From the NCBI RefSeq assembly GCF_010977555.1, contig NZ_CP048815.1, positions 744,001-808,000 of the forward strand: 64,000 nt of DNA, in the 5' to 3' direction. The notes beneath the pieces are model-generated. The model worked only from the letters and a program-made list of their open reading frames with translations. It had not been told where the DNA came from and ran no database searches. This DNA is from Caulobacter rhizosphaerae. Its GTDB lineage: Bacteria > Pseudomonadota > Alphaproteobacteria > Caulobacterales > Caulobacteraceae. This document shows positions 16,445 to 20,305 of this stretch, piece after piece. The stretch's first letter is position 1. The number at the start of each line of letters is the position of its first letter. Made by a program: the position numbers and the translations under genes.

Positions 16445-16915
16445 CTACTGGATTCCCACCGCGCGATCCAGGCTCCACCTTCCCCCACCCCTGGCCACGA
16501 GGAACAGCAGGATCGCCGCCCAGGACAGGTGGGTGCTCCAGGCGTCGGGATAGACGAAGACCTCGATCACCAGGGTCATGCCCAGGAACGCCAGGGCCGA
16601 GAGCCGGGTGAACAGCCCCAGCACCAGCAGGATCGAGAACAGGTGCTCGCTGTAGGTGGCCAGGTGGGCGGCGACGTCCGAAGGGATCAGCGGCAGGGCG
16701 TAGTCGTCGGCGAACAGCGAATAGGTCCCGTCGGTGATATGCAGGATCCCGTCGACCTTGGTGCGGCCCGACAGGAAGAACACCGAGGCGATCCCCAGGC
16801 GCGCGACCAGGGCCAGCACGTCGTCGGGCAGGGCGCGATGGGCCACGGCGGCCACGGCGTCGAACGGCCGGCTCCAGGGACGCGCGGCGGCGGGGGCGAG
16901 GATCTGGTCGGTCAT
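16445..16915 (-). CDS. DoxX-family membrane protein of the bufferin cluster
   Basis: This 156-residue protein has four membrane helices with the DoxX pattern: a first helix [21 protein letters not shown], then [31 protein letters not shown]. It is the last gene of bufA-bufB-bufC-doxX and overlaps bufC by four bases. In equivalent clusters a DoxX protein accompanies the DUF692/DUF2063 pair; its role in metal handling or redox balance of the membrane is not established. Confidence 0.85.
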
Positions 16916-17694
16916 GCGGGATCTCCAAGGTCGAGGCCGACGAACACGCCGTCGGCGATCAGGGCGGCGAACAAGGACGCCAGGTCGGCGGCGGGATCGG
17001 CCTGCGCGGCGGCGGTGATCGCCTCGCCCAGGGCGGCGCCGTCACGGGCGGAGGCCAGGAAGGCGAAGCCGGCCGCGTCAAGCCGGCGGCTATGGACGAC
17101 GTGGTCGGGGCGGACGACCAGCGCGCCCTGCGGATCCTCGGACAGCGTCATCTCGCCCGGCGCCGGCTCGCGAGCCGCCAGCCACAGGCCAGGCAGACCG
17201 CTGTCGAACCAGGCGAAGGCCAGGCTGGGATGCAGGCGCGGGCGAGCGGCGGCCAGGATGTCCGGGGCCAGGGCGAAGGCCTCCGCGGCCAGGGGCTCGG
17301 CCTCCGGCGCGAACAGGGCGGTGGTCCACATCCGGTCAAGCTGGGCCATGGCCGGCAGATAGGGCAGGTCGCCGGCCGGCGGGAAGCGCTCCAGCCAGTC
17401 CGCGAAGGCCTCGCCATAGGCCAGCAGGGCGGCGCTGGCGGGCGGATGCTCGCGGGCGAACAGGGCGGCGGCGGCGCGGAACCAGTCGTCGCCGACCAGG
17501 CTGGCCACGGTCGGGAAATTGGCCGCCAGGGCGTCGACGCAGCCCTTGGCGATGGTGTTGCGGTAGACTGCCAGGCCGGCGGGCTCGGCCTCGCCTACCC
17601 GATCGCCGCCTGGCAGCCAGCCAGCGATCGGGTCGGCGGTGCGCGCGTGGAGCGCCGCCACGAAGGCGTCCTGGAACTGGCCCAGCTCAGACAT
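16912..17694 (-). CDS. bufC: DUF2063 (putative DNA-binding domain) protein, BufC-like
   Basis: This 260-residue protein belongs to the family once annotated as DUF2063/putative DNA-binding. Its N-terminal helical region [14 protein letters not shown]...[28 protein letters not shown] is diagnostic, followed by [23 protein letters not shown] and a C-terminal winged-helix-like part. In bufferin systems this protein partners the DUF692 oxygenase to recognise or modify the DUF2282 peptide. It overlaps the end of bufB by eight bases, so the two are probably made in fixed proportion. Confidence 0.88.
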
Positions 17695-18547
17695 GGGCCG
17701 GTTCCTGCACCGGCTGGGGACAGGCGCATGCGCCTGTCCCCGTCAGCAGTCCATGCGCCCGGTCCCGCTCGGCCATCAGCACCGCGAAGGCCGGGATGTC
17801 GTCGTCACGCTCGATCAGGGTCGGGCGCGGGCCGATGCGGTCGATCAGGCGGCGGTAGAGCGCCCAGACAGGTTCGGCCACCGGCGCGCCGTGGGTGTCG
17901 ATCAGCAGGGCCGAACCGCCCTCATCGGCGCCGTGGCCGGCCAGGTGGATCTCGCCGATCGCCTCGGCGGGCAGGGCGTCCAGATAGGCCTGGGCCGCGT
18001 AGCCCAGGTTGCTGGCGCTGACGAACACGTTGTTGACGTCGACCAGCAGGCCGCAGCCGGTGCGGCGGGCCAGCTGCGCCAGGAAATCGGTCTCGTCGAG
18101 GTCATGGCCGGTCAGCGGCAAGTACAGCGACGGGTTCTCGACCAGGATCGTCCGGCCGAGGGCGTCCTGGGTGCGGCCGATGTTGCCGGCGATGCGGTCC
18201 AGGGCGGCGCGGGTGCGGGGGAAGGGCAGGAGGTCGGGCTGGTGGACGCCGCGCCAGGCGCTCCAGGCCAGGTGCTCTGAGACCACGAACGGCTCGAACC
18301 GGTCGGCCAGGGCCTTGAGGGCGGCCAGGTGGGTCGGGTCCGGATCGGCGTCGGCGGCCAGGGACAGGCCCACCCCGTGCAGCGACAGCGGATGCTGGCG
18401 ACGGATCGCCTCCAGCGCCCGCAGGCGCGGCCCGCCGGCGGCCATGTAGTTCTCGGGATGGACCTCGAACCACAGCCCCTCGTCCTCGGCCGCGAGGGCG
18501 TCGGCATAGTGCTGCGGCTTGAGGCCGAGGCCGGCGGTGGGGCGCAT
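17687..18547 (-). CDS. bufB: DUF692 multinuclear-iron enzyme, BufB-like
   Basis: This 286-residue TIM-barrel protein is from the DUF692 family. Members hold two or three iron ions and oxidatively modify cysteines of a partner peptide. Metal-binding stretches seen are SLHGVGLSLA, SEHLAWSAW, ENPSLYLPL, LLVDVNNVFVSASNLG, EIHLAGH and the HGAPV loop. The last ~17 residues ([17 protein letters not shown]) are encoded across a perfect 26-bp palindrome (17716-17741), and the tail seems to come from repeat insertion. A hairpin separates it from bufA. Confidence 0.92.
   Translation of the reverse strand: MRPTAGLGLKPQHYADALAAEDEGLWFEVHPENYMAAGGPRLRALEAIRRQHPLSLHGVGLSLAADADPDPTHLAALKALADRFEPFVVSEHLAWSAWRGVHQPDLLPFPRTRAALDRIAGNIGRTQDALGRTILVENPSLYLPLTGHDLDETDFLAQLARRTGCGLLVDVNNVFVSASNLGYAAQAYLDALPAEAIGEIHLAGHGADEGGSALLIDTHGAPVAEPVWALYRRLIDRIGPRPTLIERDDDIPAFAVLMAERDRAHGLLTGTGACACPQPVQEPAHV
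17716..17741. repeat. 26-bp perfect palindrome inside the 3' end of bufB
   Basis: This is identical to the intergenic copy at 38423-38448. Here it is translated in frame near the bufB C-terminus, giving a short cysteine-containing tail. Confidence 0.88.
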
Positions 18548-18570
18548 GGTCGCTTCCTGGAAGCTGGGTG

Positions 18571-18612
18571 GCTGTCATCCCGGACAGCGCGGCGCGCCTC
18601 CGGGATGACAGC
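18571..18612. repeat. Hairpin between bufA and bufB
   Basis: Perfect 13-base arms, GCTGTCATCCCGG/CCGGGATGACAGC, surround a 16-base GC-rich loop within the operon. It could stabilise the short bufA transcript relative to the downstream genes or cause partial termination. The arm core is shared with 469-505. Confidence 0.75.
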
Positions 18613-18629
18613 GGAAGAAAAGGGGGCGC

Positions 18630-18917
18630 TTAGGCCTTGGGCGTCAGCGAGCCCATGCCGTTCGGGGTCTTGATGCTGGTGCAGGTGCCCTTGGCGACCT
18701 TCTTCCAGGCGTCACCCTGATAGTCGGCCTTGGAGGTGCCCGCGCACGAGGTGCCGGCGCCGGCCTTGCAGTCGTTGTGGCCGGCCTTGGCCACGCCGTA
18801 GCACTTTTCCATCTCGACCTTGGCTGGCTTCATGTCGTCGCGGGCCATGGCGGCGCCGGCGCTCAGGGCGAAGACGGCGGCGAGGGCGAGGGCGGGGGTC
18901 TTGGTCACGAGGCTCAT
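18630..18917 (-). CDS. bufA: DUF2282 bufferin-type precursor peptide, BufA-like
   Basis: This 95-residue secreted precursor has a Sec-type signal peptide (residues ~1-26, ending AAMARDD). The mature part contains the DUF2282 cysteine array: [19 protein letters not shown] and KGTCTS, i.e. four cysteines. In bufferins of this family, DUF692 enzymes convert some cysteines to heterocycles that bind copper, sequestering it in the periplasm. It is the first gene of the minus-strand cluster, just downstream of a predicted sigma-F promoter. GAAGGAAAC supports the start. Confidence 0.9.
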
Positions 18918-18992
18918 GGGAACGTTTCCTTCGTCGGTTCTGGCCGCGCCCGGCGCCGTTCGTCGGCCCGTCCTGCGCGGTCAAGGAGGAGT

Positions 18993-19018
18993 TACGGACG
19001 GGGGCGGCGAAAGGTTAC
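18993..19018 (-). promoter_or_regulatory. Predicted sigma-F promoter of the buf cluster
   Basis: On the minus strand GTAACC (19013-19018) is followed after 16 bases by CGTA (18993-18996). This matches the architecture of the divergent sigF promoter (GTAACC, 16 bases, CGAA), with one change in the -10. Confidence 0.7.
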
Positions 19019-19096
19019 ACCGGTATCCGAACAAAAAATCCGGGACCCGAAAACCGCCTCGTGCCGAAAGCCCTTTCCCGCCGTGCGCAGGCGCGT

Positions 19097-19122
19097 GTAA
19101 CCATCGGCCCGTCTCGCGCGAA
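19097..19122 (+). promoter_or_regulatory. Predicted sigma-F autoregulatory promoter
   Basis: GTAACC (19097-19102), a 16-base spacer, and CGAA (19119-19122) lie 12 bases before the GTG of sigF. This is the motif known for Caulobacter sigma-F promoters, and it implies positive autoregulation. Confidence 0.75.
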
Positions 19123-19134
19123 CAAGGGGGAGGC

Positions 19135-19677
19135 GTGACGGAAACCGAAGCCGCCCTGAAGGCGCTGATGCTGCTGGGCCTGGACGGCGACGCCCCGGCC
19201 TACCGGCTGCTGCTGTCCCAGCTGGGCGGCCGGCTCCGCGTCTATTTCGAGCGCCGCATGCGCGACGCTCCCGGCGATGTGGAGGACTTGGTGCAGGAGA
19301 CCCTGATGGCGGTGCATACGCGGCGCGCGACCTATGATCGCGCCCAGCCGTTCACCCCGTGGGCCTTCGCCCTGGCGCGCTACAAGCTGATCGACCACTG
19401 GCGGCGTCGCAAGGTGCGGATGACCCTGCCGATCGACGACTATGTCGAGGTCCTGGCCGCCTACGCACCCGAGCCGGGCTCGGCCATGGACCTGGACCGG
19501 GCGCTGGAGACCCTGCCCGAGCGCCAGCGCAAGCTGGTGCGCGACGTCAAGATCGAGGGCCTCAGCCTGGCCCAGGCGGGCGAGCGGGCCGGCGTCTCCG
19601 AGGGCGCGGCCAAGGTCGCCCTGCACCGGGCGCTCAAGAGCCTCGGAGAAAGGATGCGCGGCCGTGCGGACGGATGA
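19135..19677 (+). CDS. sigF: ECF RNA polymerase sigma factor SigF
   Basis: This 180-residue ECF sigma has region 2 (DAPGDVEDLVQETLMAVHTRRATYDRAQPFTPWAFALARYKLIDHWRRRK) and region 4 (LETLPERQRKLVRDVKIEGLSLAQAGERAGVSEGAAKVALHRALKSL). The GTG start lies after AAGGGGGAGG. It is coupled to nrsF with a 14-base overlap and diverges from the bufferin operon, mirroring the Caulobacter sigma-F locus that answers heavy-metal stress such as chromate, cadmium and copper. Confidence 0.92.
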   Translation: MTETEAALKALMLLGLDGDAPAYRLLLSQLGGRLRVYFERRMRDAPGDVEDLVQETLMAVHTRRATYDRAQPFTPWAFALARYKLIDHWRRRKVRMTLPIDDYVEVLAAYAPEPGSAMDLDRALETLPERQRKLVRDVKIEGLSLAQAGERAGVSEGAAKVALHRALKSLGERMRGRADG

Positions 19678-20305
19678 TCTGATCGATCAGCTGGCGGCCG
19701 ACCCGCGCGCCATCCCGGCCGGGGCTGTGCAGCGCCGGTTCGCCGGCGTGGCCGTGGCCACGGCCCTGGCGGCCCTGGTCATGGTGCTGGCCTGGCTGGG
19801 GACGCGTCACGACCTGATGGACGCCATGGCCGGCCGGATGTTCTGGATGAAGGCGGCCTATACCGCCCTGCTGGGCGTGGCGGGCTTCTGGGCCCTGGAA
19901 CGCCTGGCCCGGCCCGAGGGCGCGCCGCGCAAGGCGCTGTTGTTCGGGGCCCTGGTGCTGGCGGTGTTCGTCGGCATGGGCTTGGGCCAATGGCTGGCCG
20001 CCGATGCGGAGCACCGGCGGCTGATGATGATGGGCGGATCCTGGAAGGTCTGCTGCCGCAACATCCTCGCCCTGGCCCTGCCCGGCCTGGCGGCGACCCT
20101 GGCGGTGCTGCGCGGCATGGCCCCGACCCGCCCGGCCCTGACCGGCTTCGCGGCCGGCGCCTTCGCCGGCGGGGTGGCGGCCACGGTCTACGGCCTGCAC
20201 TGCGGCGAGAGCACCATGGTGTTCGTGGGGACCTGGTACACCCTGGGGGTGCTCGGGACCGGCCTGCTGGGCGCGGTGGTGGGGAAGTGGGCGCTGCGGT
20301 GGTGA
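19664..20305 (+). CDS. nrsF: NrsF (DUF1109) membrane anti-sigma factor
   Basis: This 213-residue protein has a short cytoplasmic N-terminus (MRTDDLIDQLAADPRAI) and six predicted membrane helices, as in DUF1109 anti-sigma factors. Conserved cysteines are visible at C130-C131 (KVCCRN) and C180 (GLHCGES). In Caulobacter NrsF a pair of such cysteines is needed for metal sensing. Binding of the N-terminal part is expected to hold SigF at the membrane until metals release it. The GTG start overlaps the sigF 3' end. Confidence 0.9.
   Translation: MRTDDLIDQLAADPRAIPAGAVQRRFAGVAVATALAALVMVLAWLGTRHDLMDAMAGRMFWMKAAYTALLGVAGFWALERLARPEGAPRKALLFGALVLAVFVGMGLGQWLAADAEHRRLMMMGGSWKVCCRNILALALPGLAATLAVLRGMAPTRPALTGFAAGAFAGGVAATVYGLHCGESTMVFVGTWYTLGVLGTGLLGAVVGKWALRW

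Follow-up and report, generated by a model that had tools for sequence, protein, structure and literature searches.

The 64,000-nucleotide (nt) stretch of Caulobacter rhizosphaerae DNA analysed here (the window), part of a 5.96 Mb genome, carries at positions 16445-20305 a bufferin operon that stands head to head with the genes of the sigma factor SigF and its membrane anti-sigma factor NrsF. Our analysis indicates that this locus is probably the Caulobacter sigF-bufferin copper defence, with a regulon that extends to msrP, msrA and a DUF1223 gene. Homology, promoters, conservation and earlier studies of the orthologue in C. crescentus support its assignment as a copper-stress SigF operon (throughout, literature statements refer to excerpts of the papers cited). 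The locus is the orthologue of the characterised C. crescentus/vibrioides module and is not itself new; the analysis adds a modest extension, in which msrA and the DUF1223 gene are predicted as SigF targets. The features of the locus are as follows.

16445..16915, minus strand: bufD, DoxX-family membrane protein (PF07681, E-value 8.7e-18)
16912..17694, minus strand: bufC, DUF2063 partner protein of the maturase (PF09836, E-value 2.1e-23)
17687..18547, minus strand: bufB, MNIO/DUF692 bufferin maturase of 286 residues (PF05114 and NCBIfam MNIO_BufB, both above cut-off)
18630..18917, minus strand: bufA, DUF2282 bufferin (Buf1) precursor of 95 residues (PF10048, E-value 1.5e-24)
18993..19018, minus strand: SigF-type promoter of bufABCD, GTAACC-N16-CGTA, exact match, GTAACCTTTCGCCGCCCCCGTCCGTA
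19097..19122, plus strand: SigF-type promoter of sigF-nrsF, GTAACC-N16-CGAA, exact match, GTAACCATCGGCCCGTCTCGCGCGAA
19135..19677, plus strand: sigF, extracytoplasmic function (ECF) sigma factor with a GTG start (Sigma70_r2 and r4; PRK12539 subfamily)
19664..20305, plus strand: nrsF, membrane anti-sigma factor with C130 and C180 conserved (PF06532, E-value 7.5e-62)

The preliminary description had placed the four bufferin genes head to head with sigF-nrsF, with matched GTAACC-N16-CGWA boxes in the shared bufA-sigF spacer, and this arrangement was confirmed to the base. The two spacer boxes are the only exact matches to the pattern in the 64 kb, and 100 shuffles of the window gave a mean of 0.04 exact boxes and never more than 1, with two boxes in 0 of 100. 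On its own, the hexamer GTAACC is no rarity in the window (11 found, 7.3 expected), and with up to two mismatches there are 51 box matches against 39.2 expected, a modest excess reached by 1 of the 100 shuffles. The promoter evidence is the exact pair, its position and its conservation. Among 24 named nrsF loci, 11 carry exact-type boxes both ways, two of these outside Caulobacter (Burkholderia sp. 8Y and Caballeronia) with a slightly looser pattern, and 30 nrsF loci from the genus show an exact box toward sigF in 21, away from it in 25 and both ways in 20. Close relatives keep an almost constant spacing between the box and nrsF. Outside the genus, a box precedes bufA in 6 of 30 bufferin loci from the class, and 3 of the 6 also carry one in the opposite direction under a looser pattern. 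The sigF −10 element is CGAA in 21 of the 30 genus loci and CGGA in 6, with none seen in 3; it is CGAA in the window and CGGA in a metagenome-assembled genome labelled C. vibrioides, which predicts stronger sigF autoregulation here than in C. crescentus. The GTG start of sigF follows the end of its −10 box by 12 nt (19119-19135), so that a SigF-driven transcript would start in or beside the purine-rich ribosome-binding stretch.

The genes on either side of the spacer agree with this picture. All six pass their Pfam cut-offs. At the level of NCBIfam equivalogs only BufB scores above its cut-off (360 vs 310 bits), the BufA2, HvfC, HvfX and AntiSigF_NrsF models matching below their own (262 of 300 bits for NrsF); SigF scores above the cut-off of a general subfamily model. 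The bufABCD genes are co-directional and divergent from sigF-nrsF, with overlaps of a few bases at bufB/bufC and bufC/bufD and a gap of 82 nt between bufA and bufB. As in Buf1 clusters, a four-cysteine DUF2282 precursor with a Sec-type signal (the N-terminus is signal-peptide-like, judged by eye only) adjoins MNIO and DUF2063 genes; the BufA cysteines lie at 39, 50, 58 and 79, a pattern shared by all 29 sequences read from the genus, that of the window included. BufB is related to the solved 3bww and MbnB chains. Bufferins were reportedly discovered by Leprevost et al. As in SigF/NrsF (ECF16) systems, the ECF sigma gene adjoins an NrsF-family membrane protein with two conserved cysteines, and GTAACC-N16-CGAA-type promoters stand ahead of its own and target operons. 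The five best NrsF matches are all from Caulobacter, at 86-92% identity.

The same six genes stand head to head in C. crescentus/vibrioides (sigF-nrsF and CC3254-CC3257, the bufferin 1 locus; PMC3511200, PMC8224329), which also shares the promoter consensus GTAACC-N16-CGAA, the two NrsF cysteines and the presence of MsrP in the regulon. In C. crescentus, CC3254-CC3257 and CC2907-CC2905 depend on SigF through promoters backed by 5′RACE and lacZ (PMC3511200), while copper induces the SigF-dependent genes together with the MsrPQ genes and a sigF::Tn5 mutant grows poorly in copper (PMC8224329). Bufferins, their thiooxazoles and the sigma/NrsF genes of Buf1 clusters have likewise been described (PMC12452194, PMC12668002). 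The proposal of a SigF-controlled bufferin unit for copper is supported, although the association was already known. The unit is complete in a relative sense only: one DUF2282 and one MNIO gene were detected and no second bufferin operon was found in the C. rhizosphaerae genome, while in C. crescentus SigF controls a further operon, CC2907-CC2905. Further afield, S. meliloti RpoE7-EcfR7 and SMb20530-SMb20527 pair a divergent sigma/anti-sigma unit with a DUF692/DUF2063 operon and GTAAC-type promoters, in another genus and with no inducer found in the excerpted work (PMC6180224). B. japonicum EcfF-OsrA (PMC3420878) and Brucella BcrS-AbcS (PMC8315932) combine an ECF16-type sigma factor, a six-helix anti-sigma factor with two cysteines and Msr targets, and are described for reactive oxygen species (ROS) or hypochlorous acid, with no bufferin operon named in the excerpts. 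Other MNIO copper peptides (Buf2, EGKCG/oxazolin, fontiphorin; PMC12452194, PMC12668002) share a Sec-type precursor, an MNIO enzyme, a DUF2063 partner and a copper link, but the bufferin of the window is of the four-cysteine DUF2282 (Buf1) type.

In the mechanism we propose, NrsF would hold SigF in the unstressed cell, as published for the orthologue, and excess copper (in C. crescentus also chromate and cadmium) would act on NrsF and free SigF. To judge from residue conservation, it would probably do so through the two conserved, probably periplasmic cysteines of NrsF. Freed SigF would read the GTAACC-N16-CGWA promoters, one spacer promoter driving bufABCD and the other giving sigF-nrsF autoregulation. 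As published for the C. vibrioides bufferin and, by extension, in C. rhizosphaerae, BufB and BufC would convert the central BufA cysteines to thiooxazoles, and BufA, exported by Sec, would buffer periplasmic copper. The output of the regulon would then be copper buffering plus envelope repair of oxidised methionine, and perhaps of thiols.

The cysteines invoked in this mechanism are well conserved, as C130, H179 and C180 are invariant in 11 aligned NrsF sequences, the window protein included, while its C131 is not conserved; hydropathy places both C130 and C180 between hydrophobic segments. In C. crescentus, NrsF is a negative regulator whose regulon is de-repressed when both C131 and C181 are replaced, and the single-cysteine mutants still respond to dichromate (PMC3511200). 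The suggestion that the NrsF cysteines sense metal is therefore not proven. In C. crescentus, sigF is dispensable for survival of chromium and cadmium yet required for growth in copper (PMC3511200, PMC8224329). In many genus genomes (G007, G026, G029, G040, G054 and others), nrsF is followed about 190-250 nt downstream by another, more distant member of the NrsF family, which is absent in the C. rhizosphaerae genome.

The preliminary description had called the module self-contained, a view contradicted by three genes at other places in the genome, msrP, a signal-peptide msrA and a DUF1223 gene, each of which has an exact, conserved SigF box ahead of it. Eight exact boxes occur genome-wide: the 2 in the spacer, 3 ahead of these genes, and 3 that look like chance, one repeat-like (L006) and two within or near other reading frames (L008, L009). 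The MsrP-like gene (PF00174) has a twin-arginine-like start, an exact box 29 nt upstream and, after it, a membrane-protein frame that by eye resembles MsrQ; the DUF1223 gene (PF06764) has its box 33 nt upstream; and the MsrA gene (PF01625), with a signal-peptide-like start, has one 9 nt before its first or 30 nt before its second ATG. From the boxes and their conservation we predict that msrP (with the probable msrQ), the signal-peptide msrA and the DUF1223 protein very probably belong to the regulon as well. The genome-wide promoter search was dropped as stand-alone evidence, since matches with up to one mismatch are no commoner than in a reversed control.

The conservation was followed across 61 genomes of the genus, classed by hand from their NrsF match as 35 sigF-type (counting G006, whose match is in two pieces), 6 more distant, 3 weak or partial and 17 without a match. 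For MsrA, 60 genomes gave any match, and the scan covered all 52 orthologues of at least 45% identity: the box is present in 28 of 31 sigF-type genomes with an orthologue (27 exact, 1 with one mismatch) versus 1 of 21 others, the sole case being G046, with the box 30 nt ahead of the ATG. This gives p = 2.7e-10, or 3.5e-9 if a one-mismatch GTACCC ahead of MsrA in G041, taken as chance, is counted, values that overstate independence because the genomes are related. For MsrP, 48 of the 51 genomes with a match were scanned, leaving out two fragments (G004, G039) and one sequence that was too distant (G015); an exact box precedes the gene in 29 of 30 sigF-type genomes versus 4 of 18 others, 4 more of the 18 having a one-mismatch box. 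Of the 10 genomes among these 18 without any detected NrsF, 1 (G046) has an MsrP box. Six genomes (G004, G005, G009, G019, G021, G055) combine a more distant NrsF with the absence of DUF2282, and their MsrP box reads ATAACC-N16-CGTA in four and is exact in G005, G004 lying outside the scan; in these genomes MsrP may be under a related sigma system that has no bufferin.

Matches to DUF1223 occur in 61 genomes, from which 30 loci were scanned, leaving out other paralogue matches and a contig-edge fragment in G015. The box is present in all 11 members of one clade (at least 63% identity; three with a spacer of 15), versus no exact box in 19 paralogues, although in two of them the pattern occurs with one mismatch, at 189 and 246 nt upstream. 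All 11 genomes with the clade are sigF-type. The boxed clade combines a thioredoxin fold with a CSSC motif and a signal-peptide-like start; the relative 2axo has this fold, and the excerpted literature classes DUF1223 as thioredoxin-like. A full-text literature search found neither published SigF control nor a function for DUF1223, a family of solved thioredoxin fold that would here gain a regulatory context. The idea that DUF1223 is the dedicated reductant of the secreted MsrA was weakened, as G036 (100% complete) has the clade and only distant MsrA homologues; the clade is also absent in 22 of the 31 sigF-type genomes with an MsrA orthologue. For msrA itself, control of Msr genes by ECF16-type sigma factors is already known. 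The first sigF paper (Alvarez-Martinez et al. 2006) is said to have possibly linked msrA to sigF already. The boxes ahead of the signal-peptide msrA and DUF1223 lie outside the eight-gene C. crescentus regulon of 2012 (PMC3511200). Msr genes are stated to be members of the C. crescentus SigF regulon in PMC8315932, and the msrA side of the extension may thus already be known.

Several observations weigh against a copper-responsive SigF regulon of this extent. Promoter fusions of the orthologous S. meliloti system were not induced by H2O2, cadmium or chromate (PMC6180224). At one mismatch or fewer, the C. rhizosphaerae genome holds 115/106 box matches versus 113/103 for the reversed control. Three sigF-type genomes (G023, G049, G051) have MsrA without a box; G046 has both MsrA and MsrP boxes and no nrsF detected in a 680-contig draft of 91% completeness; and the one-mismatch MsrP box recurs in four genomes with a more distant NrsF. 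In the C. crescentus sigF microarray of Kohler et al., as excerpted, the msrA homologues CC0994 and CC1039 were unchanged. One could go further and ascribe the msrA and DUF1223 boxes to chance, with SigF controlling the local module only, plus the published MsrP. We regard this as very improbable: 3 of the 8 exact genome matches do look like chance, but the msrA and DUF1223 boxes are kept close to the start in orthologues, lost in genomes without a sigF-type nrsF and absent in the DUF1223 paralogues, and when 212-nt stretches of eight MsrP loci were shuffled, 8 of 16000 shuffled sequences held an exact box (four of the eight source stretches being downstream sequence, as the locus was not turned).

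A different possibility is that the system is primarily a response to oxidative damage of the envelope, in which oxidation or stress of the oxidant type is what the NrsF cysteines sense, copper being only one of several triggers. Half of the predicted regulon is methionine repair, and related ECF16 systems, which control Msr genes, are responsive to H2O2 and further ROS (B. japonicum, PMC3420878) or to hypochlorous acid (Brucella, PMC8315932). We nevertheless consider this unlikely, as agents that generate ROS did not induce the C. crescentus SigF-dependent genes (PMC3511200), copper induces the regulon in a rich medium in which signs of oxidative stress are few (PMC8224329), and the operon adjoining sigF encodes a copper chelator. 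Under the favoured copper-defence reading, C. rhizosphaerae would be one more Caulobacter with the characterised system, and copper buffering and methionine repair would be tied into one regulon. It is tempting to speculate, tentatively, that SigF runs an integrated envelope programme joining the thiooxazole copper peptide and methionine repair (MsrP, signal-peptide MsrA) with the DUF1223 clade as a thiol-redox member that would keep envelope cysteines of bufferin, NrsF or other proteins working, and with bufA-bufB palindromes as an mRNA element that would keep precursor above maturase.

The last part of that proposal concerns a structure in the 82-nt gap between bufA and bufB.

18571..18612, no strand assigned: perfect 14-bp stem-loop; exact stem once in the genome, gap fold z −4.5

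Across Caulobacter, 26 of 26 bufA-bufB gaps fold at least 2 standard deviations below dinucleotide shuffles (mean z −6.0), whereas 0 of 26 equal-length pieces of bufB fold that strongly; 29 bufA loci were given, of which L138, L139 and L143 were dropped for want of a recognised bufB start, with L146 excluded at a contig edge. The stems differ in sequence between genomes and keep the same position, suggesting that palindromes were repeatedly recruited. By analogy with other peptide operons, the hairpin possibly sets precursor/enzyme stoichiometry, with precursor above maturase, and may thus do so in a peptide-metallophore operon. There is an even chance, in our estimate, that the hairpin plays no part in expression and only marks a place where the palindromic repeats of Caulobacter land. 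Caulobacter spacers are rich in palindromes: among other gaps of 50-170 nt between tandem genes, 12 of 21 reach a z of −2 or lower (mean −2.1), and among non-tandem gaps 20 of 35 do so (mean −3.1, some equally strong at about −9); these controls come from a simple custom gene caller, with 7 bufA-bufB gaps removed by hand before comparison. The genus gaps nevertheless all fall below −2, at a mean well below that of the tandem controls, with different stem sequences at one position. A universal bufferin feature was ruled out: beyond the genus, 30 loci from the class yielded 16 measurable gaps (14 were without a recognised bufB start), and 6 of the 16, at 2-18 nt, are too short to hold a hairpin. 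Neither a stem-loop nor a hairpin is mentioned in the excerpts of PMC12452194, nor in other bufferin literature searched on these terms. Separately, the 3′ end of bufB itself contains a perfect palindrome of 26 nt (17716-17741); its 24-nt core occurs at 69 genome places with up to three mismatches, 33 of them exact, and it gives BufB the unusual tail TGTGACACP, similar to that of three relatives (L144, L148, L165).

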